From a virus: a stretch of DNA of 21,221 nucleotides. The position numbers and the translations under genes were made by a program. The stretch spans positions 1 to 21,221 of IMG/VR virus record IMGVR_UViG_3300006810_000494; one strand, 5' to 3'. Of this stretch, positions 1-20,700 are shown in pieces (position 1 is the first letter of the stretch; each line of letters starts with the position of its first letter). The notes beneath the pieces were generated by a model that was given only the letters and a program-made list of their open reading frames with translations, did no database searches and had not been told where the DNA came from.

Positions 1-2391
1 GATTTTTCTGTAGAACTTAATGTATCTAATTTTATAAAAGAGGCAAGAAGTCTTTATGAATCTAAAGGAACATATGAATCTTTTAGAATTCTGTTTAATA
101 TCTTATACAATGAAACACCAAGTATAATCAATCTTGAAGATTTCCTAATTAAACCATCTGATGCATCATACAAAAAAAGATCATCAGTAACTGTAATACC
201 AATATCAGGTGACATTTCTCTCCTTGAAGGTCAAACTATTCTGAAGAACTTAGATGATCTTACAACAGCATCTGTATCTGAAATAGATACATTTACCAAG
301 AATGGAGTCAAGTATTATAGATTAAATTTATTTGTAGGATATGATGATACATATCCATCGATCACCGGAAATTTCAATATCACTACAAATAGTAGAGTTT
401 CAGAAACTGTAGTAGTATCGAATACAGATTTAGTTGCAATTACTGTAGATTCTACTGTAGGATTCGAAGAGTCTGGAAGTATCTTTAAAGGAAATACTGA
501 GATTTTCTACACTGAAAAAACAGTAAATCAATTTTTAGGATGCCATATTAATGGAGATTTCCCAGTAACTGTAAATAAAACTGATTTTATTTACGGAACC
601 AATACTTATTATGGTTATGAAGAGGGTGATACCTCTAGAAGAGTTGATTTTATAATTACAGGAATCCTTTCAGATTTTGATTTAAAAAATGATGATTTCA
701 ATTTTGAAATTGGAGACTCACTTTATCCAGAAAGTATTGGTCAGATTGTAACTAAAGGAATTTCTAAGAAAGAGATATTTGCAAATTCATTAGTATATAA
801 TACAAATTCAAGATATCAAATCAATTTTTATAGTGGAAATACGATAAGAATATCATCAAATGTTTTAGAAACTCCATTGAAAGTTGGAGATTATGTTGAA
901 ATCTTATCTAGAGGAACTGAATTTGCAATTCCTGGGTATGAGCACGTAAATATACAATCAATTTCTAGTGATGGTAGTATATCTTTAAGTGTAAGCACAT
1001 CAAATTTAAATAGAAATCTTACTTATGATGCTAGAAGATTGCTGAATAAGGCAACTTCAGAATATGTTCTAGTAAAATATGGAAATGATGTAATATCATC
1101 AGATATTCAAAATGTATATTTTGATGATGAAGATGGTTCTGATATTGCATACATTGCTTCAAACTCATTGCCATCATATCCAATAGACATCAAACCATTT
1201 GAGTATAAGATTAAAAAGTTTGGTGGATTTGATGGAATTAAAAGAGAATATTCTACTATTGTTTTTGATACTCCAATTTCATTCTTAACTGGTGATAAAG
1301 TTTTTTATTATCCAGACCCTTCACTGACAATAACTAATCTTGAAGAAGGATTTTATTTTGTCGAAGTATTAGAAGATAAAAAGAGTTTAAAACTATATCA
1401 AAGTGGAGTTAATGTTCCTTCCGAAGACTTTTTATATTTTGGACTTTCATTGGGTGATACTCTCCCAGAAAATGAAAATAGATTGGTTCTTTTTGATCAA
1501 AGAGAAGGATTATTGTATCCACAAAAAGTATTAAATAAAATTAATCTATCCCAAACTATTGATAGTAGTCTTCCAACAGAAGTTGAACCTGGACCAATAG
1601 GGATATTGAAAAATGGTGTAGAAATCTACAGTTATAAGACTAATGATAAAGTTTATTATGGACCTATTGAAAGTGTAGATGTTCTAAATGGTGGATCCAA
1701 TTATGATGTTTCAAATCCACCACTGATCGAACCTGCATATGGTTCTGCAGAATTTTATCCAGTAGTTTCTGGATCAGTAAATAAAATTTTAATTGACCAA
1801 TCTTTCTTTGATTTTGATAACATTACTTCAATTGAATTTAATGGTGGAAACGGTTCTGGTGCAAAATTTAGACCAGTTGTAGAAAAAGTTGAAAGAAATC
1901 TTGATTTTGATACTAGATTGGTATCTGATTGTGGAGGAATCGATAAAAAAGAAAGAACCATAACCTTTAAAAATGCCCATGGATTGATTAATGGTCAAGA
2001 AATTGTATATAACTCAAATGGACTTTCTGAAGTAAATATTAAAACTAGAATATTAGATTCTACCACAACACCATCATTTAGAAATCAATATATTTTTGAT
2101 GCAGTTAGTCTTGATCAATTTGGAGGATCTGTAGCAATAGATTCTGATAAGGTTGTGATTGGTGCCCCTTTAGCAGAAATATTTGTTGGTGCTACTCTTT
2201 ATGCTGGTGCTGGTAAAGCATACATTACAGATTTAAATGGAAGTGAATATATTCTTTTAAGTGCCCCAGAAGCAGATTTGCAGACCAATGCTCAGTTTGG
2301 ATCTGCAGTTGCAATAGGACAGGGTGTAATAGCAGTTACTGCAGTATTTGAGTCAACAAGTAGAGGTGCTGTATACTTATTTGATTATTAA
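1..2391 (+). CDS. Giant gp7-position structural protein, 5' part (5'-truncated; ends at in-frame TAA)
   Basis: The frame is open from base 1, so the true start lies upstream; there is no stop until TAA at 2389-2391. The first 70 codons (motifs SKGTYESFRILFNILY and LIKPSDASY) resemble the conserved region of the very large structural protein that precedes gp8 in marine T4-like phages, the place of baseplate wedge gp7 in T4. A GGSNY beta module lies at codon 564, and an AHGLINGQEIVY module near 1972-2010. From 2113 come two FG-GAP-like propeller blades (DQFGGSVAI, AQFGSAVAI). The stop falls at the end of blade 2, after YLFDY, where other blades continue with a glycine-asparagine pair. Translation resumes in the same frame with GNFKSK and blade 3, so this is not a natural C-terminus. 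A TTG-initiated shorter version from 877 is unlikely because the conserved upstream coding sequence is uninterrupted. Role in the virion is inferred from gene order and family resemblance. Confidence 0.8.
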   Translation, partial: DFSVELNVSNFIKEARSLYESKGTYESFRILFNILYNETPSIINLEDFLIKPSDASYKKRSSVTVIPISGDISLLEGQTILKNLDDLTTASVSEIDTFTKNGVKYYRLNLFVGYDDTYPSITGNFNITTNSRVSETVVVSNTDLVAITVDSTVGFEESGSIFKGNTEIFYTEKTVNQFLGCHINGDFPVTVNKTDFIYGTNTYYGYEEGDTSRRVDFIITGILSDFDLKNDDFNFEIGDSLYPESIGQIVTKGISKKEIFANSLVYNTNSRYQINFYSGNTIRISSNVLETPLKVGDYVEILSRGTEFAIPGYEHVNIQSISSDGSISLSVSTSNLNRNLTYDARRLLNKATSEYVLVKYGNDVISSDIQNVYFDDEDGSDIAYIASNSLPSYPIDIKPFEYKIKKFGGFDGIKREYSTIVFDTPISFLTGDKVFYYPDPSLTITNLEEGFYFVEVLEDKKSLKLYQSGVNVPSEDFLYFGLSLGDTLPENENRLVLFDQREGLLYPQKVLNKINLSQTIDSSLPTEVEPGPIGILKNGVEIYSYKTNDKVYYGPIESVDVLNGGSNYDVSNPPLIEPAYGSAEFYPVVSGSVNKILIDQSFFDFDNITSIEFNGGNGSGAKFRPVVEKVERNLDFDTRLVSDCGGIDKKERTITFKNAHGLINGQEIVYNSNGLSEVNIKTRILDSTTTPSFRNQYIFDAVSLDQFGGSVAIDSDKVVIGAPLAEIFVGATLYAGAGKAYITDLNGSEYILLSAPEADLQTNAQFGSAVAIGQGVIAVTAVFESTSRGAVYLFDY

Positions 2392-3150
2392 GGCAATTTT
2401 AAGAGTAAAATAACGGCATTTGATGCTGCTGATGGTGATCAATTTGGATTTAGTATTGCTATTGGAAATGATAGAATTGTAGTTGGTTCTCGTTATGATG
2501 ATGATTATGGATTACAAACTGGTGCTGCATACATTTATGATTTAGAAGGAAATATAATAAACAAAATATATCCTTCAGATCCAGAAGCTACTTTAGTCTT
2601 TGGTTTTTCAGTTGATATAAACGATAATTTAATTGCCGTTGGTGCTGTAGGTTATGCTGATTTTATCGGTGCAATATATCTTTATGATGTAAATGGAAAC
2701 TTTATTAGGAGGATTGTTCCATCTGATGGATCTGGTGGTGGTGTTACTATAGGAGATAGATTTGGAACTTCAATAAGTATAAAAGAAGACTTAATCGCTG
2801 TTGGTGCTCCATATAGAGATGGAGAAAAAGGTGCAATTTACTTATTTGATTATGAAGGAAATGAGTTGAATATACTCACAGATTCTGCTGGTGTTGCCCA
2901 AGATTATATGGGAAGAAATGTCAAAATTAATAGTAGAAGAATAGTTACATCTTCATTTGGTTACAATTCCTTTGCTGGAAAGGTTTTTGTTTATGATATT
3001 ACTGGAAATTTATTATCAACATTAATTCCAACAGACTCTACCGCATCAGATCAGTTTGGATTTGCTCTTGCCATAGGAAGTGGGAGAATTATAGTTGGAG
3101 CAAGAGAACCAGGAGTAAGAACTGGAAAAGTTTATCATTATGGAACTCCA
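2113..3150 (+). repeat. Seven FG-GAP-like repeats: predicted seven-bladed beta-propeller
   Basis: Seven successive repeats of about 49-59 codons begin near 2113, 2290, 2437, 2593, 2755, 2902 and 3049. Their consensus is D-Q/R-F-G-x-S/A-x-x-I, then an I-x-V-G-A core strand, then G-A-x-Y-x-Y-D and x-G-N. Examples are DQFGFSIAIGNDRIVVGS, DRFGTSISIKEDLIAVGAP and GAIYLFDYEGN. This is the pattern of FG-GAP (FG-GAP_2 type) repeats, which build integrin-like propellers; seven copies match a closed ring. Blade 6 is the most divergent (DYMGRNVKI). The in-frame TAA at 2389 lies at the blade 2/3 junction, so the reading frame of the propeller is cut. A role in ligand or host-surface binding is inference only. 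Confidence 0.82.
2389..2391 (+). other. In-frame TAA stop inside the propeller
   Basis: Codons read D-Y-TAA-G-N-F. In the equivalent place other blades read D-Y-E-G-N (near 2848), D-L-E-G-N, D-V-N-G-N and D-I-T-G-N. A single G-to-T change of GAA (Glu) would give the TAA. The frame before and after is unchanged and open for hundreds to thousands of codons, so no insertion or deletion is involved. It may be a nonsense mutation, a sequencing or assembly error, or, less likely, a recoding site. Confidence 0.85.
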
Positions 3151-6100
3151 GTAAATGCTTTTGAATTTAAGAAATTAGTTAATAATGCAATATACTATCC
3201 AAGAATATTGGATAGAAGTAAAATTGAGTTGTATGATAGTTTAAATAACTACTATCAACAATTAAATCCAGTAGGATTTACAACTGTAACTGATTTGGGA
3301 ACTCATAAGTTCTTATCTTCAGGTAGAAATAAACTATCTGAAATATTAGTAGTTAGTGGTGGTTCTAATTATACTAATAGAAGATTAAAAGTATCTTCAT
3401 CTGGAATTTCAACTTTTAGTAACACAATAAACTACAAAAATCATGGATTCTCTGATGGAGATATTGTAAATTACGAATCAGAAATAACATCAATATCTGG
3501 AATATCAACATCTGACAAATATAGAGTATTAAAAGTTGATGATGATACATTTGGACTAGCATATGCTGGTGAAGATGGTAAAGATATTACCGACTATTCG
3601 AGGAGATATAGGGCAAGATTATTCGATTCCGGATCTGGTGATCAGATCTTCAGTGATCCAGAATTTAGTGTTAATATTAGATATTCATCTCCTGGAATTG
3701 GAAATACTCAAACTGTATTGAAAGGATTTCCAATTATAAGAGGAGAAATCTCTCAGATTTATGTTTATGATGGTGGATCTGACTATGGATCAAATAGTCT
3801 CAATTTTAATAATAGACCACCTATTTTAGTTAAAAATGGTTCTGGTGCAATACTTGATCCAGTAATCGTTGATGGAAAAATAAGTTCTGTTAAGGTATTA
3901 TTTGGAGGATCTAATTATTATTCAATTCCAGATTTGGTAGTGAATGGTTCCGGAATTGGTGCAGTATTAAGAGCAACACTTTCAGATAATAAAATTGTCA
4001 GCGTATCTGTTCTGAATTCTGGAAGTGGATATGCTCAAGCATATACTACAGTAACCATTTTAAATCCTGGTGCTGGAACAGTTTTAAGGGCAAATATAAG
4101 ATCTCTAACTCCAAACATATCTTTTAGATATGGAATTCAGAATAACTTCTATAGAGATCCATCATCAGAATTATTAATAAGAGGTAGAAATAATTTGCAA
4201 TATGCTGTTGTAAGTTATTCAGATACTCTTAAGAATAAATTAAATGATGTTAGTGGAACTAATGGTTCTCATTCAGAAATTATTGGATGGGCATATGATG
4301 GAAATCCAATTTATGGATCTTATGGATATTCGGATCCAGAAGATATAAATTCCGACATAAAACTATTGAATAGTGGTTACGAATTAACTACAATTGATAA
4401 TAGACCTTCTGAAGATATTTTCCCCTTAGGATACTTTGTAGAAGACTATGTATATTCTGTAGATTCTGATTTAGATGAATTTAATGGTAGATTTGGAAAA
4501 ACTATAGATTTTCCAAATGGAGTTTATGCTTATTTTGCAACTACCGAATTGAATGTGGATGAAGTAATAATTGGAAAATTTCCATATTTTATAGGAAATA
4601 AATTTAAATCGAAGTATTTAAAAATAAATCAAAATTTAAATCAGTCATTTGATTTTAATAGTTCAAAATTACTAAGAAATACATATCCATATGGAATTGG
4701 TGATAAGTTTTCAACAAATGATTTTATATCAGAATCCAATAAATTAACATATCAAGAATCTATAATAGAATCAATATCGACCGGTGGTATTGATGGAATG
4801 ACTATAATTGAACCTGGAGATAATTACTCAGTAAATGATACTGTAGTTTTTGAAGATGTTGAAGATTTAAGAAACAAACCATTTGTAAAAGTATCTGAAA
4901 TTTCCGGAAAAGAAGTTTCTAGTATTGATACAGAATTAATATCATATCCAAATTCAGTTCTTTCATGGGAAGATAAAAACTATATTAGAGTCAATGTTTT
5001 CCCATATCATGAATATAATGTAGATGATATAATTACAATTAGTGGATTATCAACTGATAGTTTGAAAATAAATGATACATATAAAGTTAAATTTGATACT
5101 ATAAATTCAACCTTATTTGAATCTATCGGTGATTATTCAACTACTGGAATAGTTACAGACATATATTTGAGCTATATTCCAGAAAATGTATCAGTTGGAA
5201 ATAGCATAAGAATTGATGATGAATTATTTAAAATTCTAGATTTTTATAATACATTTTCTATTGCAAAAGTAGAAAGATCAGTATCTGGAACTGCACATAC
5301 TAGTGGTGCTAATATAGAATTTTTGCCCGATTATTTTACCATAGAAAAATCCGTTGATAAATTTATTTCCAATAAATCTAGGAATTTATATTTCAATCCC
5401 AATATTGCCCTTTCTGTAGGCGTAAATACTGGTTTTGGCGTTACTGTATCCTATAATATAGGAAATTCTAATTATAATACATTTATTCCATCACAGTCAA
5501 TACTTTTACAAAATAATAAGTTAAATACTGCGGACAAGATAATATTAAGTAAAGAATCATCATCGTTACCAATTTCTGTCAAAAGTCCTGAAACAAATGC
5601 AGAATTTAATATCCCTGATGATGTAAATGAATTTTATGTTGTTAAAAAATCAATTGATTTTATTGGAATTGTAACTAATGTTGGTCTTACAACTTTTTCG
5701 AATGGATTATTTTTCTTAGATGGTGGTTCAAATGATTATGGATATCAATTTACTACAGTTGAGGATCAAATAACTGCAGATTCTAATAGAATTACAACCA
5801 CAGTATCAATTTCAACTTCTCATAATTTGCAAGTTGGTGATAAAGTAAAATTAAATGTTAGACCAGATTTAAATGTTGGTATAGGAACAAGCACGTCCAT
5901 AAGAGTTAAGTATAAAGATGGAAATCTATTGATAAATGAAATCAAGTTTACTTCTTCAGAAGTAAACAATATTGATAATATATTATCAATATACCAACAT
6001 AATTTCCATACCGGACAAAAAATATTCTATGACTCCGAAGACAATGTAATATCTGGACTATCTACTGGAGAATATTTCGTATATAAAATTGATGATGACA

Positions 6101-9100
6101 ATATCAAATTGTCAGAAACATATTTAGAATCAATTTCAACTCCACCAACTGTAGTTTCATTTGGATCTGTTGGGGGAAATCTACAGATAATAAGTTCAAT
6201 AAATCCACCAATTTCAAATTATAGGAATAATAATTTAGTATTTGATCTATCAGATACTTCATTGTCTGGTTATGGTTTTAATGTTTACACTGATGATGGA
6301 TATGAAAATGTATTTAATGCAATAAAAGATGATGGATTATTTGCAGTTTCTGGAATTGGAACTGTAGGTGTTTCCACTGATGCTGCATTAATTTTAGATT
6401 ACACTGATAAAACTCCAGCAATATTGTATTACAATTTGACAGAATCTGGAATTCCAGTATCAACTACAGATAAAGATGTAAAACAATATTCTCAAATAAC
6501 ATATAAATCTAGCATTTATAATGGAGAATTTCCAATCATTGGTATAACTGATCAATCTTTTGATATTTGTATACCAAGAATACCTGAAAGATTATCATAC
6601 AATTCTTCAGACTGTGATCGTTTAGAATATAGCACTACATCATTAAGTGCAAGAGGTCCAATTAAAAAACTATTCGTAGTTAATCAAGGTTACCCTCTTA
6701 AGAATTTACCTTCATTCTTATCAGTGAGCAGCTCTCTTGGTAAAGGGGCATTCTTAGTTCCAACATCAAAATCTATCGGAAAGATATTAAGTAGCAGAAT
6801 TACAAATGAAGGTTTTGATTACTCATCAGATAATACTATTAGACCTGTAGCTAGTGTTCCAAAATCTTTATATCTAACAAATACCAATAAAATAAATTCT
6901 GTAAGTGTATTGAATGGAGGATCTGATTACAGTTTTGCTCCAATATTGATAATAGTTGACCCACAGAATGGTGAAGTTATAAACTCTGGATTTTTAGATC
7001 CAATAATGTCCGGATCTTCAATATCTAGTGTAGATATTAACATATCTCCTGCCGGTCTTCCAGATGGAGAAGTATTAATTAGATCCATTAATAACAGTAA
7101 TGGTGTTAATATTGATCGAGTAGAATATTCTCCATCTGGAACAGTAACTTGCACAATAACAACACCAATTGCAGGATTCTCATCTCCATTATTTGAGTTG
7201 GGAGAAAAAATATATGTTGAAGGAATTGAAAAGCAATCTTCAGATGGAACGGGATTCAATTCTGAGAATTATGGATACAACTTCTTTACTGTAAGTCAAT
7301 ATTTTGATACAAATCCAGTAAAAGTTGAATTTAATATTTCAAATTATTCAAATAATCCAGGAACACCTAAACAAGTTCAAGAAGGATCTGCATCTATAAT
7401 AAAATATGATAATTACCCAAGATTCTCTATAGATAAATCTCTTTCATCTTTCTTTGAAGGTGAAAATCTACTTATAAATCGTGGAAATGGATTTGAAAAT
7501 TCGGGACTGAAAGTTACAAAGGCAAATACTTCCAATATTAGAGTATTGGGCAATTTTACTCCAAAAATTGGTGATATATTAAAGGGAGAAAATACTTCAA
7601 GTGTAGGGACAGTTTCATACATAAAATCTAGTGATGCTGTATACAATTCTTCCTGGACCATAGTTAAAGATCTTGGGTGGACATTTAATACTGGAAAATT
7701 AAGTGAAAGTTTCCAAGTATTTTCTGATAATGATTATTATCAGAAAATGTCTTATTCTGTGAAGATCACCAAGACATGGGATGAAATATCTTCAGTAATT
7801 AATCCATTAGTCCATATAAGTGGATTAAAAGATTTTGCAGATGTTCAAATAACTGGTAAAGCAGATTCTGGAATATCTACTGAGTCAAAAACTGAATTTG
7901 AACTGAAAAATAGTTTCTTCTCGGAGCTTAGAGTTGATAGAATTAATGATTTTGATTTGGCAATAGATGTAAACGTTACTAAAAATGGATCTAGTGATGT
8001 TTCTAGATCAGTAAAACTTAATAATACATATTTGCTAGATTTTGTTCTTTGCAAATCTAATAGAGTTTTGGATATTGATGATATAAGTGATGATTTTTCA
8101 AGCAAAAATGATAAAAGAAAAGAAAATGAAACAATTATATCAATAAATTCTTCAAATTATTATAATAAATTTTTAATACTTTCCAAAGATATTATCAGTG
8201 GAAAAATTCAATTTAATGAAATAATTTCACTTAATGATGATGAAAGTGTATATTCTCTATTTAAAACTCAAATTTCAAACGGAGAAAATATATTAGAAAG
8301 TATTATTCCATCATATGATGTGAACTTTAATTATATACTTGATGCATTTCCAGTAGATCCTGATAATTCTGCAATATCGTTCAAAATATTGAAGGAAACA
8401 TTTATTAATGATTTTGTAGGATCAAATTCAAATGAATTAGGTTGCATTTCATTACTGTCTAGCAATGTGGAGGCAGAATCTGGCATATCTACTAGTGTCT
8501 ATAATTTAGACACTAACGATTACTCTGCTGTCCATTCTAGTATTCAAATATTGAATGATGACAAATCTAAGATGAATTATGTTGAAATTTATGTTTCACA
8601 TGATGGAAATGATACTTTTATAAATCAATATTATTTTGATTCTGAAGATGGATTTAGTTTCTCTTCACTAGGGCAATTTGAACCATCTTTAGATGGCGGA
8701 GAGTTATCATTAAATTATACAAGTAACACTGAGGAAAACTTAACTATTAGAAGTAGAAGTGTTGCATTTGGATCTACATCTTTGGGAATTGGGACATACA
8801 GATTCCTTTCAGAAAATCAACCAGATGGATCCGAAAGAACTGCTCTATATCAATCTCAATTTGATACAATAACATCAGGAACTGGAGAAGTATTCTCTAT
8901 AGATTCTAATTTATTCTCTGCGGTCAAATCAACTGTCAAGGTAAGCACTGGTCAAACTAGCTCAGTCCATCAAGTTATTTCATTATTTGATGGTTCTGAC
9001 GTATATGTTTCCGAATATCCATTCTTATCTGCTAGAAGTCAAGTTGGTGTAGGAACATTTATTGGAGATTTTTCTCTTGGACAGTTTAAATTATCGTTTA

Positions 9101-12100
9101 AACCTTATTCATACCCAGATGATGTTGAAATTATTTCCTTTAATCAATGCTTCTATAAAGATTACGATGAAATTAATCAACCATTAGATTTGAATTATTC
9201 CCCAGTTAATGAATCTCTAAGTTTAGCATATTATTATGGAAACAATGTAGATTTGGGATATAAAGTTGATTTTGAAATGAATTATAAAGGTTCTCCAATA
9301 TTTGCAAAATCTTTTGATCCATCAAATACTAGTGTAGTAGATTTTTCTACTAATTCATTCAATATTAAAGATCATTTATTTAATACTGGGGAAGAATTAA
9401 AATATACTCCGGGATCAACATTTGTAGGAATTGGAAGTTCCCCTATAGGAATAGTTGAAACTGAGGATAATGTTGGAGTATTAACTGATCTTCTACCATC
9501 TACATTATATGCTATTAGAGATGATAATAATACATTTAGAGTAGCAACTAGAAAGGAATATGCCACTGCCGGATATGGTGTTACATTTACTTCTGTTGGA
9601 ATTGGTAATTATCATCAAATTGAGATGGTAAAGAAAAATGAAAAATCTTTAATTTCAATTAATAATTTAGTTCAAAGTCCAATTTCATATACCTACATTA
9701 GTCATGTTCTTGCAAACAATTCTGGTCAAATTTCTGCTGGTGCCACTACTTTTGCTCTTAGTGGAATAAGTTCAATTAGACCTAAAGATGTATTGAGGAT
9801 TGAAGATGAATATGCAATAGTTGAAAATGTTGGATATGGAACTGAAAGTGTAGGTCCCATAACATTCTCCGGAAATGAACCTTTAGTTGAAGTTTCTAGA
9901 GGATCTTTTGGATCTAAGGCGTTATCTCATCTAGATGGAACTAATTGTCAAATCTATAGGGGTGCATATAATATCAATGGAAATAAAATATACTTTATTG
10001 ATCCACCAAAAGGAAATAATTTAGATTTAGTTCGTGCCAGTGAAAGTAACCTATCTATAGATCGAGATAGTTTTAATGGTAGAGTATTCTTGAGAAAGAG
10101 TTATGAAAGTAATGAAGTATATGATGATATTTCAGATCAATTTACTGGAATTGGACAAACATTCACATTAACTGCTCAAGGAATAAACACTGTAGGTTTA
10201 GGAACTAGTGGTGGTAATGGACTAGTATTCATTAATGGTGTCTTCCAATCACCAACTACTGAAAATAATTCCGATAATAATTATATTATTGAGGAAGATC
10301 TCAATCTTGGAATATCTAGTATCACCTTCACTGGAATAACATTTGAAGAAAATGATTTCTTATCTGAAATTGATATAAATCAGAATAAACTTCCAAGAGG
10401 AGGTGTTATTGTATCATATGGATCAACTGCAGGACTTGGTTTTGCACCTCTAGTTGGAGCATCAGTAACAGCAGTTTTAAATTCTGGTTCAATAATCTCT
10501 GTAGGAGAACAACCATCTGATGAGATTGGTTCTGGTTATTATGAAATTCCTTCAGTAGAAATTATCGATCCTGATCATAATGGTGATGATGCTATTATTA
10601 ATGCAATTGTTGGTGCTGGTGGAACACTGGCATTTGATGTTGTCTTCGGTGGAACAGGTTATGTAAATCCATTTATAAATGTTGGATCACCATCTTATAG
10701 CAATCTCTCTATAATTGGTGTTTCTAGACTATCAGAGGGACCTACAACAGACTCTGGATTTGGTGCTCTTATAACTTTAGATGTAGGACCAAGTGATTCT
10801 GTTGGTATTGGTTCTACTCTTTACGAAGTTAAAGGATTTAATATTGTTAGAAATGGTTATGGTTTTAGAAGAGGCGATGTATTTAAACCAATTGGTCTAG
10901 TTACTGATAGAAATCTATCTGCTCCAATATATGATTTTGAAATTACTGTGGTAGATACATTTTCTGATGAATTTAGTGCTATTCAGATTGGGGAACTTGA
11001 TTATATAGATTCTTTAGCACCATATCAAGATGGAAAGAGAGTCAGATTCCCACTAATTTACAGAGGAGAAAACTTAACTTTTGAGACTGATGAACTTGAC
11101 GAAGAGTCTGAATTGATTGATTTGAACAATGTTTTAGTTATCTTTATAAATGGAGTTTTACAAGAACCAATAAAATCATATCAATTTAATGGTGGATCTA
11201 CATTCACATTTACTTTCCCGCCAAAAGAATCTGATGACGTTAAGGTCTTCTTCTATAGAGGAACTAGAGGTGAAGATAGTCTTCAATTTGATATTGATGA
11301 AACTATACAAATTGGAGATACTGTTCAAATTGTATTAAACAATGAAATTGAAAATACAAAAACTCAAGATGAAAGAATTGTTTATTCCATAACAAGCTCT
11401 GATGTTTTCCAGACAAATATATATCAGTATGTTGGTATAGATGATCAAAATTATAAGCCATTGCATTGGACAAAACAAAAATCTGACTTAATACTTAATA
11501 ATGAGGAATTATCAAAAGCAAGAAGATTAAAATCATCTCAAGTATATCCAACTGCCAATATTATAAGTAATTTTGATGCAAATTCAACAGAAATATATGT
11601 TGATGATATTAGTTTATTTGATTATGAGGATGAAACTATAATTAATTTTGATGCTCTTGTATTTACAAACGCTGTTGGAGTTGGAACAACTATAACATCA
11701 AAAAATTATGAATTAATTTCTGGCGTAAATAATCTAGAAGGATTTAATGCTAGTGTAACTAGCATATCTCCAACTTCTGGAATTGGTGCTGCTGATGGAA
11801 TTGAATTTGTAATTAGTAGAGACCCATTCACGTTCACTAATTTTACTGTTGGAACAGTATTTTATATTACTGAGACTAATGTTGGACAGGGAGTCATTTC
11901 CTTAGATAATTCTGGATCAAATACTTTATCAATATCCACATCATTTGTCAATAACATTTATCAAGTTGCATCTTTCAATTCTTCAACTGGAACTATAGTA
12001 TGCAATGTCGATTCCGGATCAAATCTTTCTGGAATAACAACTTCAGGAACATTAAATTATCCTGTAGGAAAACTTTCTTGGAGAAGACTTTCTGGATTCC

Positions 12101-12255
12101 AGAGAAGATCTGTTGATCCACTAGATATTGATATAATGGGATATACTTCTAGTGTTGGTATGACATCTGATTCATATAATTCTGGATTATCAACATATCC
12201 CATCATTCAGAGAAGAAACTTTGGATTCAGAGATAGTGGTGCTCTAATAGTATAA
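2392..12255 (+). CDS. Giant gp7-position structural protein, 3' part (in frame with 1-2391)
   Basis: This continues the frame of the upstream part directly after the TAA, for 3,287 codons to TAA at 12253. There is no credible new start: the first candidates are TTG at 2866 and ATG at 2908, both inside propeller blades and without a Shine-Dalgarno sequence, and clear homologous sequence lies upstream of them. Order of content: propeller blades 3-7 (to 3150); a run of GGS-x-Y beta modules (3358-4110); a YHYH-type segment (about 4201-4590); HGL/TGD-type modules; more GGS-x-Y modules (6916, 10528, 10648); a tandem pair of beta modules (8524-9165); and the C-terminal cassette of marine T4-like phage structural proteins (INGVLQEP, FFYRGTRG, STYPIIQRRNFGFRDSGAL). 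No transmembrane segment or signal peptide is apparent. It is probably a peripheral baseplate or fibre protein. If expressed only as fragments, this part may not be made. Identity as a T4 gp7 counterpart rests on position. Confidence 0.82.
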   Translation, partial: GNFKSKITAFDAADGDQFGFSIAIGNDRIVVGSRYDDDYGLQTGAAYIYDLEGNIINKIYPSDPEATLVFGFSVDINDNLIAVGAVGYADFIGAIYLYDVNGNFIRRIVPSDGSGGGVTIGDRFGTSISIKEDLIAVGAPYRDGEKGAIYLFDYEGNELNILTDSAGVAQDYMGRNVKINSRRIVTSSFGYNSFAGKVFVYDITGNLLSTLIPTDSTASDQFGFALAIGSGRIIVGAREPGVRTGKVYHYGTPVNAFEFKKLVNNAIYYPRILDRSKIELYDSLNNYYQQLNPVGFTTVTDLGTHKFLSSGRNKLSEILVVSGGSNYTNRRLKVSSSGISTFSNTINYKNHGFSDGDIVNYESEITSISGISTSDKYRVLKVDDDTFGLAYAGEDGKDITDYSRRYRARLFDSGSGDQIFSDPEFSVNIRYSSPGIGNTQTVLKGFPIIRGEISQIYVYDGGSDYGSNSLNFNNRPPILVKNGSGAILDPVIVDGKISSVKVLFGGSNYYSIPDLVVNGSGIGAVLRATLSDNKIVSVSVLNSGSGYAQAYTTVTILNPGAGTVLRANIRSLTPNISFRYGIQNNFYRDPSSELLIRGRNNLQYAVVSYSDTLKNKLNDVSGTNGSHSEIIGWAYDGNPIYGSYGYSDPEDINSDIKLLNSGYELTTIDNRPSEDIFPLGYFVEDYVYSVDSDLDEFNGRFGKTIDFPNGVYAYFATTELNVDEVIIGKFPYFIGNKFKSKYLKINQNLNQSFDFNSSKLLRNTYPYGIGDKFSTNDFISESNKLTYQESIIESISTGGIDGMTIIEPGDNYSVNDTVVFEDVEDLRNKPFVKVSEISGKEVSSIDTELISYPNSVLSWEDKNYIRVNVFPYHEYNVDDIITISGLSTDSLKINDTYKVKFDTINSTLFESIGDYSTTGIVTDIYLSYIPENVSVGNSIRIDDELFKILDFYNTFSIAKVERSVSGTAHTSGANIEFLPDYFTIEKSVDKFISNKSRNLYFNPNIALSVGVNTGFGVTVSYNIGNSNYNTFIPSQSILLQNNKLNTADKIILSKESSSLPISVKSPETNAEFNIPDDVNEFYVVKKSIDFIGIVTNVGLTTFSNGLFFLDGGSNDYGYQFTTVEDQITADSNRITTTVSISTSHNLQVGDKVKLNVRPDLNVGIGTSTSIRVKYKDGNLLINEIKFTSSEVNNIDNILSIYQHNFHTGQKIFYDSEDNVISGLSTGEYFVYKIDDDNIKLSETYLESISTPPTVVSFGSVGGNLQIISSINPPISNYRNNNLVFDLSDTSLSGYGFNVYTDDGYENVFNAIKDDGLFAVSGIGTVGVSTDAALILDYTDKTPAILYYNLTESGIPVSTTDKDVKQYSQITYKSSIYNGEFPIIGITDQSFDICIPRIPERLSYNSSDCDRLEYSTTSLSARGPIKKLFVVNQGYPLKNLPSFLSVSSSLGKGAFLVPTSKSIGKILSSRITNEGFDYSSDNTIRPVASVPKSLYLTNTNKINSVSVLNGGSDYSFAPILIIVDPQNGEVINSGFLDPIMSGSSISSVDINISPAGLPDGEVLIRSINNSNGVNIDRVEYSPSGTVTCTITTPIAGFSSPLFELGEKIYVEGIEKQSSDGTGFNSENYGYNFFTVSQYFDTNPVKVEFNISNYSNNPGTPKQVQEGSASIIKYDNYPRFSIDKSLSSFFEGENLLINRGNGFENSGLKVTKANTSNIRVLGNFTPKIGDILKGENTSSVGTVSYIKSSDAVYNSSWTIVKDLGWTFNTGKLSESFQVFSDNDYYQKMSYSVKITKTWDEISSVINPLVHISGLKDFADVQITGKADSGISTESKTEFELKNSFFSELRVDRINDFDLAIDVNVTKNGSSDVSRSVKLNNTYLLDFVLCKSNRVLDIDDISDDFSSKNDKRKENETIISINSSNYYNKFLILSKDIISGKIQFNEIISLNDDESVYSLFKTQISNGENILESIIPSYDVNFNYILDAFPVDPDNSAISFKILKETFINDFVGSNSNELGCISLLSSNVEAESGISTSVYNLDTNDYSAVHSSIQILNDDKSKMNYVEIYVSHDGNDTFINQYYFDSEDGFSFSSLGQFEPSLDGGELSLNYTSNTEENLTIRSRSVAFGSTSLGIGTYRFLSENQPDGSERTALYQSQFDTITSGTGEVFSIDSNLFSAVKSTVKVSTGQTSSVHQVISLFDGSDVYVSEYPFLSARSQVGVGTFIGDFSLGQFKLSFKPYSYPDDVEIISFNQCFYKDYDEINQPLDLNYSPVNESLSLAYYYGNNVDLGYKVDFEMNYKGSPIFAKSFDPSNTSVVDFSTNSFNIKDHLFNTGEELKYTPGSTFVGIGSSPIGIVETEDNVGVLTDLLPSTLYAIRDDNNTFRVATRKEYATAGYGVTFTSVGIGNYHQIEMVKKNEKSLISINNLVQSPISYTYISHVLANNSGQISAGATTFALSGISSIRPKDVLRIEDEYAIVENVGYGTESVGPITFSGNEPLVEVSRGSFGSKALSHLDGTNCQIYRGAYNINGNKIYFIDPPKGNNLDLVRASESNLSIDRDSFNGRVFLRKSYESNEVYDDISDQFTGIGQTFTLTAQGINTVGLGTSGGNGLVFINGVFQSPTTENNSDNNYIIEEDLNLGISSITFTGITFEENDFLSEIDINQNKLPRGGVIVSYGSTAGLGFAPLVGASVTAVLNSGSIISVGEQPSDEIGSGYYEIPSVEIIDPDHNGDDAIINAIVGAGGTLAFDVVFGGTGYVNPFINVGSPSYSNLSIIGVSRLSEGPTTDSGFGALITLDVGPSDSVGIGSTLYEVKGFNIVRNGYGFRRGDVFKPIGLVTDRNLSAPIYDFEITVVDTFSDEFSAIQIGELDYIDSLAPYQDGKRVRFPLIYRGENLTFETDELDEESELIDLNNVLVIFINGVLQEPIKSYQFNGGSTFTFTFPPKESDDVKVFFYRGTRGEDSLQFDIDETIQIGDTVQIVLNNEIENTKTQDERIVYSITSSDVFQTNIYQYVGIDDQNYKPLHWTKQKSDLILNNEELSKARRLKSSQVYPTANIISNFDANSTEIYVDDISLFDYEDETIINFDALVFTNAVGVGTTITSKNYELISGVNNLEGFNASVTSISPTSGIGAADGIEFVISRDPFTFTNFTVGTVFYITETNVGQGVISLDNSGSNTLSISTSFVNNIYQVASFNSSTGTIVCNVDSGSNLSGITTSGTLNYPVGKLSWRRLSGFQRRSVDPLDIDIMGYTSSVGMTSDSYNSGLSTYPIIQRRNFGFRDSGALIV
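3340..4110 (+). repeat. Cluster of GGS-x-Y beta modules
   Basis: Four modules follow one another with the pattern hydrophobic strand, G/S-G-S-x-Y, strand, G-S/A-G-A, strand, G-K/N-I. Their cores are GGSNY (3358), GGSDY (3772), GGSNY (3904) and SGSGY (4018). Related single copies occur at 1690, 6916, 10528 and 10648 in this gene. Another pair lies in the gp8-like gene (12989, 13100), and one or two copies in the DUF4815 gene (19418 and about 19550). Modules like this are common in large marine phage structural proteins; their fold is not known to me. Confidence 0.7.
4201..4590 (+). other. YHYH-type domain segment
   Basis: The sequence around 4270-4326 reads HSEIIGWAYDGNPIYG followed by SYGY. 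It continues through YSVDSDLDEFNGRFGKT and FPNGVYAYFATTE. This H-S-x-I-I-G-x-A-x-D-G-x-P-I-Y-G signature with a downstream L-D-E-x-N-G-R-F and Y-A-Y-F is characteristic of the YHYH protein family, found also in cyanophage structural proteins. The literal Y-H-Y-H tetrad after the aromatic strand is not present here (the sequence is YAYFATTE). Biochemical function is unknown. Confidence 0.7.
8524..9165 (+). repeat. Tandem pair of related beta modules (about 85 codons each)
   Basis: Copy A starts at 8524 with SAVHSSIQI and contains YVSHDGNDTFINQYYF, LGQFEPSLDGG and a final strand ending SVAFG. Copy B starts at 8917 with SAVKSTVKV and contains LFDGSDVYVSEYPF, GTFIGDFSLGQ and a final strand ending NQCFYK. 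The shared skeleton is SAV-x-S, D-G-x-D-x-(Y/F)-(I/V)-x-x-Y-x-F, G-x-F, L-x-(F/Y). The nucleotide sequences have diverged, so this is an old duplication. The pair recurs in cyanophage structural proteins of this kind; the function is unknown. Confidence 0.6.
9721..12255 (+). other. C-terminal module cassette typical of marine T4-like structural proteins
   Basis: Recognisable blocks in order: a D-E-Y-A-I-V-E-N-V-G-Y-G-T unit followed by VEVSRGSFGSKALSHLDGT and IYRGAYNINGNKIYFIDPP (about 9770-10010); a first INGVFQSP unit (about 10231); GGS-x-Y related modules with glycine-rich loops (10528-10860); a second INGVLQEP unit at 11146, leading into GGSTFTFTFPP, FFYRGTRG and GDTVQIV; a KPLHWTKQKSDLILN segment; and the terminal TYPIIQRRNFGFRDSGAL block. 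I recognise this arrangement from the large proteins upstream of gp8 in cyanophages. It supports the view that the 3' end is intact and functional in design. Confidence 0.65.
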
Positions 12256-12277: not shown

Positions 12278-13849
12278 ATGTCCGCACTTGTAACAGATCA
12301 ATTTAGAATTGAAAATTCTTCGAATTTTGTAGAATCTATAAAAGATTCTACAAATTCTTATTATATCTGGGTTGGATTGCCAAATCCAAGTGTTTATACT
12401 GGATTTGCTAGAAATGAAAACTGGCAGGGATCTCCAGGTGTTTCTGAAGGTTTTGTCCCAAATCCAGTTGATAATCTTAGCTATTTGAATCAATATAAAG
12501 ATACTCTACTTTTTGGAAAAAGAGTAACTTCTTCTAGTGTAAGAAGAGTTGTGAAGAGAGTTGATTGGGTTAGAGGTAAAAAATATGATATGTATAGACA
12601 TGATTATAGTTTTTCAAATCTAACTACAGTATCAAAAAGACCAAGATTATTCGATTCTGAATTTTATGTAATTAATAGTCAATATAATGTGTATATTTGC
12701 ATAAAAAATGGAAGTGGTGCAGGAAATAATCAGGCAAATCAATCTCAATATGAACCAAAATTTACTGATTTAGAACCATCTGCTGCAGGAAATGGTTCAG
12801 ATGGATATGTGTGGAAATATTTGTTTACTATTTCACCTTCAGATATTATAAAATTTGATTCTACAGAATATATACCATTACCAAACGACTGGTCAACATC
12901 AACTGACTCAAATATTGTAAGTGTAAGAGAATATGGCAATTCTGATTTAAATGAAAATCAGATTAAAACTGTTTTTATTGCTGAAAGTGGTTCAGGATAT
13001 ACTTCAGGTGAAGTTTCAATCTTGGGTGATGGTTCTGGAGCTAAAGTTTCAATAGAAACAAATTCTGCAGGAGAAATAATTAATACTACCGTAACTTCCG
13101 GAGGTTCTGGATATTCATATGGTATTGTTGACTTAGGAAATTTACAACCAATTGGAAATATATCCAATCCAGCAAAATTAATTCCAATTATCCCACCATC
13201 AAAAGGTCATGGGTATGATATTTACACCGAATTGGGTGCAGATAAGGTATTATTATATACTAGATTTGATTCTTCAACTAGAGATTTTCCAGTAAATTCT
13301 AGATTTTGTCAAATTGGTATTGTAAAAAATCCAAAAGAATATGCATCGGATCAAATTTATTATGGTGGAGAATTTTCAAATTTACAATCAATTATTTTTG
13401 ATAGCGTAAATGAATTTTCTCCAACAGTTGGAGAAAAAATTAAACAAACAATTACTGGAGTTGGGACTGCAGTTGGATATGTAGCATCTTATGATGACGA
13501 TACTAAGGTTTTAAAGTATTTTACTGATAGATCTCTTTATAATGGTGATTCTAATGATGAAACTGATTATATTGGTGTTTCTGTTGATGGGAGAAATATA
13601 GATTTTACCAATGCAGGATTAAACGTAATTGGAGAATCTAGTGGTTTTTCTGGAAGTATTTTAAATTTCTCTGGAATAACTACAAACATCCAAAATTCAA
13701 TTGTAAATCTGGGAGTCAATTTTACTGAAGGACTTGCTTCTTCAGAGATAAATAAAAGAACGGGGGATATTTTATATATTGACAATAGACCTCTAGTCTA
13801 TAGAAATGAAAGACAAAAAGAAGACATCAAAATCATTCTCGAATTTTAA
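12278..13849 (+). CDS. gp8: Baseplate wedge protein, gp8-like
   Basis: This is a 523-residue protein starting MSALVTDQFRIENSSNF. The N-terminal block (ESIKDSTNSYYIWVG, DWVRGKKYDMYRHDYS, YVINSQYNVYICI) and the segment DGYVWKYLFTISPSDIIKF (residues about 176-195) followed by YIPLPNDW match the gp8 family of T4-like phages. In T4 gp8 is a component of the six baseplate wedges. It is longer than T4 gp8 (334 residues), mainly because of a glycine-rich middle with two GGS-x-Y modules (SGSGY at 12989, GGSGY at 13100) and a C-terminal extension, as usual in marine relatives. The start is the first ATG after the upstream stop. Upstream there is only an A-rich purine stretch (12261-12269), not a strong Shine-Dalgarno sequence. 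Unlike the two giant neighbours, the frame is uninterrupted. The next gene begins 3 bases after its stop. Confidence 0.9.
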   Translation: MSALVTDQFRIENSSNFVESIKDSTNSYYIWVGLPNPSVYTGFARNENWQGSPGVSEGFVPNPVDNLSYLNQYKDTLLFGKRVTSSSVRRVVKRVDWVRGKKYDMYRHDYSFSNLTTVSKRPRLFDSEFYVINSQYNVYICIKNGSGAGNNQANQSQYEPKFTDLEPSAAGNGSDGYVWKYLFTISPSDIIKFDSTEYIPLPNDWSTSTDSNIVSVREYGNSDLNENQIKTVFIAESGSGYTSGEVSILGDGSGAKVSIETNSAGEIINTTVTSGGSGYSYGIVDLGNLQPIGNISNPAKLIPIIPPSKGHGYDIYTELGADKVLLYTRFDSSTRDFPVNSRFCQIGIVKNPKEYASDQIYYGGEFSNLQSIIFDSVNEFSPTVGEKIKQTITGVGTAVGYVASYDDDTKVLKYFTDRSLYNGDSNDETDYIGVSVDGRNIDFTNAGLNVIGESSGFSGSILNFSGITTNIQNSIVNLGVNFTEGLASSEINKRTGDILYIDNRPLVYRNERQKEDIKIILEF

Positions 13850-13852
13850 CCA

Positions 13853-14782
13853 ATGGCACAAAAAACTAATTTAAATGTAAGTCCTTATTTTGATGATTTC
13901 GATGCTGAAGATAATTATTATAAAGTATTATTTAAGCCTGGGACTCCCATTCAGTCTAGAGAATTAAATAATCTCCAGTCAATACTACAAAATCAAATTG
14001 AATCCTTTGGAAGTCATATATTTAAAGAGGGTTCATTAGTAATACCTGGAAGTGTTACATATGATCCTCAATATTTTGCTGTTAAATTAAATCAAACATA
14101 CTCGAATATTGATATTCGATCATATATTGAGCAATATATAGGAAAGCAAATTGAAGGGGAAACCTCTGGAGTAACTGCAATAGTTCAGAGAATAGAATTT
14201 CCAAATGAAACCAACAATTTAGATTATATTACACTATATGTAAAATATCTTGATGCTAATAATGATAATGTTATTAGTTCTTTTGAAGATGGAGAATCGT
14301 TAATATCAAACGTAGCAATTACTTATAGTGAAAATACTGTAATTAATGAAGATACTCCATTTGCAACTTTATTGGAAGTAGACGCTACCGCTATTGGGTC
14401 TGCAGTATCAATAACTGATGGAATATACTTCATACGAGGGACATTTGCAAAGGTATATAAACAAACTTTAATTTTAGATTATTATACAAATACTCCATCA
14501 TACAGGGTTGGTCTTCAAGTATCTGAAGAAATTGTAAGTGCTAAAGATGATAATCAATTGTATGATAATGCTAAAGGATTTAATAATTATTCAGCACCAG
14601 GATCAGATAGATTTAAATTGACATTAACTTTAGATAAGAAAGAATTAGGAACAGTAGAATCTGATGTCGATTTTATAGAAATTCTCAGAATAGATGGTGG
14701 AGATATAAAGAAAATTACAGTAAAGAACCAATATTCATTAATTAGAGACTATCTGGCAAAAAGAACATTTGAAGAATCTTGA
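13853..14782 (+). CDS. DUF4815 structural protein, N-terminal part (ends at in-frame TGA)
   Basis: The start ATG at 13853 lies 3 bases after the gp8 stop, which suggests translational coupling; no Shine-Dalgarno sequence is visible. The N-terminus shows the DUF4815 hallmark: NVSPYFDDFDAEDNYYKVLF, then PGTPIQSRELNNLQSILQNQ and FGSHIFKEGSLVIPG. The frame runs 309 codons to TGA at 14780, after RTFEES. The same frame continues immediately with NYSVAPFKLSLHNSLNN and then a PGKAYVRGFD motif that belongs to the same DUF4815 domain. In relatives I recall the equivalent text is E-S-G-D/N-Y, so the TGA replaces a conserved glycine. The fragment ends mid-domain and probably does not represent a natural short protein. 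The full gene encodes a large virion protein found between gp8 and the fibre genes in marine T4-like phages. Confidence 0.85.
   Translation: MAQKTNLNVSPYFDDFDAEDNYYKVLFKPGTPIQSRELNNLQSILQNQIESFGSHIFKEGSLVIPGSVTYDPQYFAVKLNQTYSNIDIRSYIEQYIGKQIEGETSGVTAIVQRIEFPNETNNLDYITLYVKYLDANNDNVISSFEDGESLISNVAITYSENTVINEDTPFATLLEVDATAIGSAVSITDGIYFIRGTFAKVYKQTLILDYYTNTPSYRVGLQVSEEIVSAKDDNQLYDNAKGFNNYSAPGSDRFKLTLTLDKKELGTVESDVDFIEILRIDGGDIKKITVKNQYSLIRDYLAKRTFEES
14780..14782 (+). other. In-frame TGA stop inside the DUF4815 domain
   Basis: Codons read E-E-S-TGA-N-Y-S. The surrounding DUF4815 sequence predicts glycine here, and GGA to TGA is a single G-to-T change. The reading frame is the same on both sides, and 13853-21136 would be 2,427 codons without it. 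No sign of a frameshift, insertion or mobile element is seen. As with the TAA at 2389, the explanation could be mutation, sequencing error or, less likely, readthrough. Confidence 0.85.
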
Positions 14783-17700
14783 AATTATTCTGTAGCACCA
14801 TTCAAATTATCACTACACAACTCTTTAAATAATAATATTGATAGTGAAGGATTATTTTTCCAAAATGAATTTACCGATGAGGGTAATATACCTTCAGATG
14901 ATTTAATGTGCCTAAAATTATCACCAGGAAAGGCATATGTAAGAGGATTTGATATTGACAAACCAGTCACTACAATAATTGATGCCAATAAACCAAGAAA
15001 AACGCAAAAAGTAGAATCTCAAATAGTTACTTTTGATTTTGGAAATTTAATTAGAGTAAATAATGTTTATGGAGCACCAAGATTAAATTATATTGTAGAG
15101 TTGCATAATGCAAGAAGAACTGCTGGCAATCCATTTACTACCAGTAAAATTGGAGAAGCTAAAATTTATAGTTTTTCATTGACAGATGCAAAATATACTG
15201 GACCAGAATCTAGTTGGGATCTTTATCTTTATGATATTCAGACATACACTAAGATAACGTTGACTAGTGGAACAATATCTAATGCTGAATTGCCAGAATG
15301 TTCATTTGTAAAAGGAGCAGATAGTAGTGCAACTGGATATGCAGTTACTTCTGGTGGAGGATCATCTACTATATTACTATCGCAAACTTCTGGAAAATTT
15401 TCTTCTGGTGAAAAGTTAATAATTAATGGTTTTGAAACAAATTATATTATTTCCACAGCAGTTTCATATAGTATTTCTGGTATTAAGCAAGTATATCAAG
15501 ATGTAGCAAATACTTCATATCAAAATGCATTTCTTTGCGACACTGTTTTACAAAATGTAACCCCAGTAGGATTTAATGCTTCAGACACTTTAGTAATAGG
15601 ACCTACTGGTGAAGCAACATCTCCTGGAAATTCATTTTCTACAGTTAATGTTGGAGATATTGTAAGATATCAGCATCCAGATTTTTCAGATGAAGTTTAT
15701 AATGTTATTACTGGAGTAAATGCTTCTTCATTAACACTAGAATCAGTTTTAAGTGTTGCTGGAGTATGTGAAGGAACTGTCCAAGGAAGTTTCACCGCAT
15801 CTTCATTCTCTATAGGATCACCAAGAGTAGTAAATACTAATTCTACAGGTTTATATGAATCTCTTCCAGATAGAGTAATTTCTTCTATAGATTTAAGTTC
15901 TGTATCTTTAACATTTAGTGCTCAAACTAATATAACTAGATCAGCTGGTAGTCCTATTGTAATTTCAGTATCTGATTTTGACGTTCCAAATACATCAAAT
16001 TTCTTACCATATGATGAAGAGAGATATTCCATTCATTATACAGATGGAACTATAGAGCCTTTAGATTCTACTAAAGTTACAGTTTCGGGAAATCAAGTAA
16101 CATTTTCTAATTTCGATGATACCAATAAAGTAACAGATGTTATTATTGCAACTTTTAGTAGACAAAATATAACCAATAAATCAAAAACATTAGTTCGCAG
16201 TCAAGTAACAAATATTACATTATCAAAATATAAAGAGTCTGGAAGTGACCCATCTACAACAATTAATGACGGATTGGCATATAATCAATATTATGGTTTA
16301 AGAGTTCAAGATGAAGAAATTTGCCTGAATTATCCAGATGTAGTTAAAGTGTGGGCAGTATATGAATCTTTAGATACCAATGCTCCAGTTTTAGACAAAT
16401 TGACATTTAGTTCTGTATTAAATGTTGAGGAAAATGTTATTGTTGGTGAAAATGTTATTGGAAACTCTAGCAGATGTATAGCAAGAGTAGTTTCAAAATC
16501 TGCAGAGACTGTCGAGATTGTTTATTTAAATAATAATAGATTTATAGAAAGTGAAGTAGTAACATTTAGTGAAACTGGATTATCTAGTGAAATTGGAGAA
16601 ATAATTGATGGAAGTTATTTGAATTTAACAAATTCTTATAGATTAGATAAAGGTCAAAGAGAACAATATTATGATTACTCTAGAATAGTAAGAGTTCTAT
16701 CTAAAGAAGAACCATCCAAAAAACTTCTAATAGTATTTGATTATTTTTCTGTTCCAAATAATGATACTGGCGATATTATTTCGGTTTTATCATATCCTAG
16801 TGACCAATATAAAAATATACCACTACTGAATTCTGGAACTATAAGAGCATCTGATGTTCTGGATTTCAGACCTAGAGTAACAGAAGGATTTAGTCAAACA
16901 AACGTATCACCATTTTACTACACAAATAGAGATTTTAGCACTAAAATTGATTTAAATATATCTCCAAATGAAGGAGCTTTATTATCATATGACAGATATC
17001 TTGGAAGAATTGACAAAGTATATTTGGATAAAAATGGAAACTTTATTTATCTTGAGGGTCAATCTGCTTCAGATCCAAAATCTCCTGTAAAGAAAGATGA
17101 TATAATGGAATTAGCAACTGTTGAAGTTCCACCATATCTATATGATATTAAAAATGCATTGATAACGATTAAAGATAATCGAAGATATACAATGAGAGAC
17201 ATTGGTGTCATTGAAAATAGATTAGAAAATCTTGAAAGAGTAACTTCTTTATCACTTTTGGAGTTAAATACTCAAAATCTTCAAATACAAGATGCTGAAG
17301 GATTTAATAGGTTTAAGACCGGATTTTTTGCAGATGCATTTAAAGATTTGGATAGAGCAGATCTTTTATATACTTTTTCTGAAATAAGTAATAATCTTGG
17401 TGGACTAACTCCCCTATCTGCAAAAAATAGTCTTAAGAATTTCCTAGCACCAAAATTAAATGTTGGAGATAGTCAAATTGATTTATCTACCGATTATGAA
17501 TTGATTGATACTAAAGCTGTAAAGAGAGGTCCATGTGTCTTATTGGATTATGAACCAGAATTATGGGTAGAACAGACTTTAGCTACTCAAGTTGAAAATG
17601 TAAATCCATTCCATGTAGTAACTTATAGGGGACTAGTTACATTATCCCCAAGTAGAGATAATTGGACAAGAACTATTCAATTGGAAGATGTTGTCATTAA

Positions 17701-20700
17701 CATCAGAAATTCAAGTAGTTCTTCATCATCTCAAACTGTTCAAGGTAGAGATATTGTAACTGAAATTGCAAACTGGGATATTGCCCAAGGAGAAAGATTA
17801 GAAGTTATTACTGGTCAAGTAAGTAGCACTTCAACTTCCACATCAACTAGCACTTCTTTCAGCTCTTCAAGTAGAACTGACCTTGTAGACACATATGCTG
17901 AAGAGTATATGAGATCGAGGAATGTTACCTTTAATGTAACAAATACAAAACCATATACTAGATATTACCAATTCTTAGACGGGAACAGTGCTGTAGACTT
18001 TATTCCAAAGTTTATTGAAATTGCTTCAGATAGTTCATTGCAAGAATATGGATCAAGTAAAGATTATATAATTGGTGAGACTGTTATTGGATATGATAAA
18101 CAAAATAATCAAATTATTTCTTTTAGAGTAGCAGCTCCAAATCATAAAACTGGTTCATTTAATAGTCCAGCAACTGTATATGAAGTAAACCCATATATTA
18201 GATCTGAACTTTTACCTGATGACTACACAAATACTTCTAAAGTTATTAACGTTGATTTATTAGCACTTTCAGAAGAAGCTCAGGGATTATATTCTGGATA
18301 TGTAAATGTTGGAACAAAGTTAATAGGACAAACTAGTGGTGCTGTTTCTTATGTTAAGGATTTGAAATTAGTTTCAGATAACTTTGGAGATCTTGCTGGT
18401 TCATTCTTCCTTAAAGATCCAAATACAGTTCCTGCACCATCTGTAAGGATTAATACTGGAACAAAAACATTTAGAATTACATCTAGTCAAAATAATACTC
18501 CAATAATACCAGGAAGCACTCAAATTTCAGCAGCAGAAGCACAATATTTATCTGAAGGAACTGTTGAAGAGTATCAAACTACCATAACAAATGTAACTAC
18601 AGTTACGACAGTAGTAACAACAACTACTACTGTTCAAAACACTGTTGATGCATATTTTGATCCTCTTGCACAATCATTCTCAGTAGGAGGATCTGGAACT
18701 ACTAATAATGATGAAGAAGGTTCATTCCTATGTGAATTTGATCTTTTCTTTGCAAATAAAGATTCTGGAAGTAATCCAATTACCGTTCAGATCAGGACAG
18801 TTGAATTGGGAACTCCAACTAGAGTTGTTATCGGACCTCCAGTTGTTCTTAAACCAAGTGATATTGCAACATCCACTGCAGGTGATGTTGCAACAAGAGT
18901 AAAACTACCATATCCAATATATTTGGCACCAAATCAGGAATATGCCATAGTATTATTGGCACCAGAAAGCACTGAATACGAAGTTTTCATTGCAGAAATG
19001 GGTAAAGCAGTATTGAAACCATCAACTCTGCCAAATTCAGAAACTCAATTCTATACTCAACAATTTGCGATGGGTAGTCTCTTCCTTTCGCAAAACGGAT
19101 CCATTTGGACTCCAAATCAGTTCCAAGATCTTAAGTTTAGACTGTATCGTTGCAAGTTCAAAAACTCTGCCGCAAATGCATATTTCTTCAATCCTACCCT
19201 AGATAGGAGTAATGGATATGTAAGAAGATTAACTGAAAATCCTGTTACCACAATTCCAAGAAGAATATCTGTAACTTTCGATGATTTATCTATCTCAACT
19301 CTCGGATATGATATTGATTCAATAATTGGAGTAAAGATATCTGAAACAGAAAAAGATCAAAATTATGGATCAGTAGTCTCTGTTGGAGCATCTGTAGTTT
19401 CATTAGCAGTTCTTGATGGCGGATCTGGATATTCAGATGGATTTAATTTTGCAACAAGTTCTGTTGGAAGTAATGCATTTGGGCTTGAATGTGACATAGT
19501 TACATCAGATGGTGCGATTATTAGTGCTACTCCATCCCCATTTAATTTAGGATCAGGTTATATTGAGGGAAGTATTATTGAAGTTGATACCGCAAATGGT
19601 AGAGGTGGAAGATTAATAGTAACTACAGATCCAACTATCATTAATACATTATATCTTGGTGGGGTTCAAGGAGAATCATTTACTGTAGATGGAACAAATA
19701 ATTTAGTAGTATATGATAGTGGAGGAAATAGAAATACATTTACTCCTCCAGTATTAATTACAAATTCAAATACTGTTTCCGAAATATTCTCTGGAAAATA
19801 TATGGCGGTAAATCATTTCAATCATGGAATGTATGCAAGCAATAATAAAATAAAATTATCAGGAATTTTACCATCAGATATTTCATACACTATAACACAA
19901 GCAGTATCTTCTTCAGACTCTACAATTTCGGTATCCGATATTGATAAATTCTCAACTTTTGAAGGTGTTCCAGTAAGTAGTGAAAATCCAGGATATGCAA
20001 TTATTCAAAATGAAATTATAAAGTATGAAAGCACTTCAACTGGAGTTCTAGATATTGTTTCTAGAGGACAAGATTCAACGTTAACACTTGACTATCCATC
20101 TGGAACTCCGATAAGAAAATATGAATTGCAAGGAGTATCTTTAAGGAGAATAAATACCACTCATACAATTAGCGATTATGACATAGGAATAGATAGATAT
20201 TTTATTGAAATTGATAGAACTGCAAATGGTCCAGATAGATCAATTGATAATACAACTTTAAATTATCCACTACTATCGTTCTCATCTCAACTATCTTGTG
20301 GTGGACCTAATGTATTTGCATCAGAAAATATACAATATAATGCAATCGTTCCATACTTTAATATAGTTTCCCCAACAAATTCCACAAAAGTTACTGGAAG
20401 AATTCGATCTGTTAGTGGAACAAGTGCAAATGGAACTGAAGTATCTTTTGAGGATCTAGGATTTGAAGACGTAATTTTAAATAATTTAAATACTTTCGAT
20501 AAGACTAGAATTGTTTGTTCAAAAGTAAATGAAGATAACTTCCTATCTGGACTTCCCAGAAATAAATCATATACTTCGGCATTAACTTTAGAGACAAGCA
20601 ATCAATATCTATCACCAATAGTTTTCTTAGATAATTGTTTTACTGAATTTAGATCTTATAGAGTGAATAGTCCTATTACAGATTATTCTACAGATTTAAG

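Follow-up and report, generated by a model that had tools for sequence, protein, structure and literature searches.

The in-frame TAA codon at positions 2389–2391 of the window (the whole 21,221-base stretch of virus DNA analyzed here) is very probably an alteration confined to this contig rather than a heritable, selected feature of the phage, its likely source being an unselected transversion caused by sequencing error or DNA damage. Three genes, all on the + strand, make up this virus record: gp7, gp8, and a phrog_358/DUF4815 structural gene. The phage is a T4-like cyanophage, and the interrupted gene is gp7, which encodes its giant baseplate wedge initiator. The third gene likewise contains an in-frame stop (TGA, + strand, 14780–14782), which the initial annotation had not included; neither stop is shared by the other contigs of this phage that cover its site.

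The assignment of gp7 follows from a whole-length match to the phrog_2885 profile and from its location directly before gp8. The part preceding the TAA (1–2388) matches the profile with an E value of 1.2e-161 and the part following it in unchanged frame (2392–12255) with an E value of 0, the profile running continuously across the stop (positions 183–856 before it, 540 bits; positions 858–3325 after it, 2,360 bits). In frame 1, 796 open codons precede the TAA, which stands directly after GATTAT (Asp-Tyr), and 3,287 follow it up to the terminal TAA at 12253–12255, bearing out the initial annotation that 1–12255 would be a single frame but for this codon. The 5′ end of gp7 lies beyond the window; in a sister contig (see below), the start ATG falls at window coordinate −545, and the complete protein has 4,266 amino acids. 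The downstream gp8 gene for a baseplate wedge subunit (12278–13849; phrog_438, E 2.3e-151; Phage-Gp8, PF09215) is intact, and the phrog_358/DUF4815 gene, recognized by profile matches, extends from 13853 to 21136; gp7 and gp8 are terminated by TAA and the third gene by TGA. The relatives of gp7 in the phage collection are cyanophages, 440 records matching its first part (by name, Synechococcus 350, Cyanophage 61, Prochlorococcus 24, and Marine 5); near DNA relatives of the window were absent from the named phage collection, and an NCBIfam search of the window returned no match.

The status of the TAA is revealed by two sister contigs in IMG/VR, 3300025840_000015 (116,179 bases) and 3300006867_000043 (31,777 bases), each retrieved from viral_contigs both by a pattern and by a protein search, which span all 21,221 bases of the window without a gap and show 32 differences from it (99.85% identity). 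They carry the same propeller in gp7 as the window but differ from it by sense codons at both stop sites, for Glu (2389) and for Gly (14780); each of their three frames ends in a terminal stop only, leaving the window with one extra stop in gp7 and one extra in the third gene. Glu is the residue that had been predicted at 2389 in the initial annotation, which had also proposed comparing homologous phage genomes at this codon, and it is encoded in 2/2 of the same-phage contigs covering the site. An ordinary residue was to be expected there, because the equivalent turn in later propeller blades carries ordinary residues (D-L-E-G-N, D-V-N-G-N, D-Y-E-G-N, and D-I-T-G-N). The earlier view that mutation or error is more probable than a deliberately shortened protein is likewise supported, gp7 being open throughout in both sisters. 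No difference separates the two contigs, whether inside the window or beyond it, and they thus may represent one sample assembled twice; they would therefore perhaps amount to a single independent witness at 2389. A literature search on the three metagenome numbers gave no match.

At the second stop site, the sense base at 14780 is found in a third contig of the same phage (3300006025_002291, which differs from the sisters at 1 of 5,132 bases), in a 90% relative (L030), and in 68/68 more distant loci aligned by blastn. In the protein alignment, Gly occupies this site in all 61 aligned gp8-linked loci (80 searched), 3 of which are this phage, and the locus set overlaps with that of blastn. Contigs like the window seem to be uncommon, because a stop inside the alignment was met in only 1/80 gp8-linked loci, possibly an undercount since tblastn may end alignments at stops. 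That single locus (L070, 3300007214_000144) has two nearby stops inside the alignment in its gp7 region, which may reflect error, a broken gene, or an alignment extending over a boundary. A scan with the pattern surrounding the TAA returned 8 stretches in viral_contigs, of which 2 belong to this phage and the other 6 are chance occurrences without a blastn match to the window.

The 32 differences, read from sister to window (C>T 8, G>T 6, G>A 4, T>C 4, G>C 3, A>G 3, C>A 2, A>T 1, and C>G 1), likely comprise two layers, namely real strain differences and unselected, G/C-directed changes. The 19 transitions (13 synonymous and 6 missense) carry the mark of selection, as their synonymous count exceeds the 5.12 expected at random (P 0.0001; all random expectations are from 20,000 draws). 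The 13 transversions are scattered, with 1 synonymous, 9 missense, 2 nonsense, and 1 intergenic against random expectations of 0.68, 10.71, 1.55, and 0.06, respectively, and the probability of at least two nonsense changes is 0.47; these counts are compatible with transversions that arose at random and without selection. Although the DNA has 30.7% GC, 12 of the 13 replace a G or a C (binomial P 6.5e-6), as compared with 12/30 in a 97.9% relative, L040 (Fisher P 0.002). The G>T/C>A types account for 8/13 in the window versus 8/30 in L040 (P 0.04), with no excess of G:C/T:A exchanges when L040 is counted in both directions (8/13 versus 13/30, P 0.33). Window alleles are common to L040 at 3/12 covered transitions and 0/5 covered transversions. 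The synonymous/non-synonymous ratio for all changes differs between the window (14/17) and L040 (90/32; P 0.004), the differences for transversions only (1/11 versus 11/19, P 0.13), for transitions only (P 0.09), and in the transition/transversion ratio (19/13 versus 92/30, P 0.08) being not significant. The window base is present in some distant homologues at 10/13 transversion sites, which says little at about 65% identity. The synonymous transitions are for the most part tightly clustered, at 1260–1293, 9411–10128, and 13024–13066, as recombination tracts or chimeric assembly would give. Taken together, the transversions have the features of an artefact, being private to one assembly, unselected, and biased in spectrum, albeit in small numbers (13 transversions). 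In conventional sequencing, C>A/G>T is described as the artefact that occurs most often, and it is tied to 8-oxo-dG (PMC6337315).

Both stops are thus most likely due to a sequencing error, to DNA damage, or to a defective molecule; neither recoding nor readthrough nor a split gene matches the evidence. In this reading, the contig would be an assembled copy of a T4-like cyanophage that has an intact gp7 in its other copies. Besides the usual differences between strains, it would carry about a dozen transversions that are scattered, unselected, and almost always directed at a G or C; two of them would by chance have created stops, the first in gp7 and the second in the phrog_358 gene. These changes would most likely have come from base-call or DNA-damage error of the guanine oxidation type, fixed into a contig that was presumably thinly covered.

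The explanation that comes next, that the assembly captured a phage genome or subpopulation that is genuine but made defective by a real nonsense mutation, is unlikely, although the transitions (13 of 19 synonymous) show the window to be a true strain variant, a real molecule with its own history, and damage in environmental virions would produce the same G/C-directed spectrum. Such defective genomes would persist only briefly, as dead molecules or by co-infection. Two lethal-looking stops in two tail genes within 21 kb, together with nine missense transversions, argue against a state long heritable in a lytic phage; gp7 is essential in T4. Still further from the evidence would be a real subpopulation in which both proteins are cut and rescued by readthrough or by co-infecting intact phage, with the short-gp7 baseplates constituting a living, cheating, or host-range-altering form, an idea we consider highly improbable.

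Stop reassignment or programmed readthrough, in which the TAA (and the TGA) would be decoded to give a short gp7 and a rare long one, finds no support, and we regard it as very improbable; the initial annotation had left readthrough to a rare long form open. The frame does stay intact downstream of both stops, and phages with recoded stops exist; proteomics described in one report on crAss-like phages shows TAG read as Gln (PMC9523058). However, same-phage contigs without either stop already contradict this explanation, and two different stops would have to be recoded, both of which serve as ordinary terminators in the window. Whereas a recoded stop should be kept in relatives and its codon unused as an ordinary terminator, the stop is missing in 2/2 contigs at 2389 and in all relatives aligned at 14780. 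Furthermore, the RNA 3′ of the TAA folds no better than shuffled sequences (z 0.36), and Rfam and tRNA scans of the window returned nothing, so that neither an intron nor a suppressor tRNA gene is present within it. The weakest proposal, that gp7 and the phrog_358 protein are each designed as two chains with the second made from an internal start, has next to no probability. In its favour, the TAA is followed by an in-frame TTG at 2866 preceded by AAGGA, and the TGA by an ATG at 14906. Against it, this TTG, the first in-frame start past the TAA, lies 477 bases beyond it, past about three propeller blades, with an AAGGA that belongs to Y-E-G-N repeat coding, the ATG at 14906 (126 bases past the TGA) has no Shine-Dalgarno-like site among four motifs scanned, and both genes are unsplit in the sisters and relatives. 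A promoter or terminator at the stop was likewise discarded as a candidate, with 2 promoter-like sites found versus 3.6 in shuffles and no terminator.

The stop is therefore present in the record but private, and is best explained as an error or one defective molecule. Even where a gene in one metagenomic virus contig looks strikingly interrupted, the matter can be settled through sister contigs and the substitution spectrum, two stops per 21 kb being the yield of about 13 unselected transversions. This serves as a warning that short forms, readthrough, or pseudogenes should not be deduced from one contig alone.

More notable than the stop is the propeller insert of gp7 in which it lies. The insert amounts to a net 365 residues or so, with 369 residues encoded at 2047–3153 (+ strand) as against about 4 in S-SRM01. 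It contains FG-GAP_2 repeats (PF14312, E 4.1e-53, 6 stretches), and a single-sequence structure prediction of the intact sister sequence, of moderate confidence (mean pLDDT 70.1, pTM 0.78), shows seven four-stranded blades as counted by eye; the repeats and the predicted fold together identify an FG-GAP beta-propeller. Structural matches of the model in the PDB are led by integrin alpha propellers, and a sequence search for a relative of solved structure found none. The initial annotation had placed the stop at a junction between propeller blades; the propeller stands, whereas in the predicted model the stop site is insert residue 115, within blade 2, in the turn joining its third and fourth strands (106–112 and 118–123). 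Among 115 loci searched, both gp7 flanks were found in 36; the 6 that belong to this phage have 369 residues separating the flanks, as opposed to −5 to +8 residues at the insert site in the other 30, some of which look like one phage twice (such as L045/L046 and L084/L085). The propeller is thus specific to the gp7 of this phage among 31 measurable gp7 loci or records (the 30 loci and S-SRM01), and no locus besides those of this phage gave an insert match at E 1e-6 in the 115 searched. As a guess from the fold, the propeller may function in host contact or adhesion; in this one cyanophage lineage, the incorporation of an integrin-like seven-bladed propeller into a baseplate protein that is essential may be relevant to how hosts are reached or held.

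The gp7 of the window is worth comparing with that of S-SRM01 (MW015081, QPX48159.1), a whole-length homologue whose flanks are 50.6% (tblastn, baseplate wedge initiator) and 48.2% identical to it and whose gene order is the same (gp7, gp8, and a DUF4815-like gene). The S-SRM01 protein has neither an internal stop nor the propeller, and its two flank matches abut, 12 bases apart. The S-SRM01 gene following gp8 at the DUF4815 place (28745–34037) is annotated as a virulence-associated VriC protein, a name that looks like a misnomer, and in S-SKS1 (HQ633071.1/NC_020851.1) the gp7 match region at 136567–139733 carries no annotated feature. A literature search combining FG-GAP, cyanophage, and baseplate found nothing. 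Propellers resembling the insert occur in 20 of the 50,697 records of the phage collection, mostly cyanophages, and in other proteins where looked at. The FG-GAP propellers of S-TIM5/S-TIM66-type cyanophage virions are 33.8% identical over 93% of the insert, and a propeller of this type is also the top match in the viral structure library (TM 0.74). The match in S-SCSM2R is a gene named TolB, and that in S-H9-1 a 4,620-base gene named baseplate wedge subunit. In contrast to the propeller of S-TIM66, which is encoded by a separate 1,224-base gene, that of the phage described here is part of gp7 itself.
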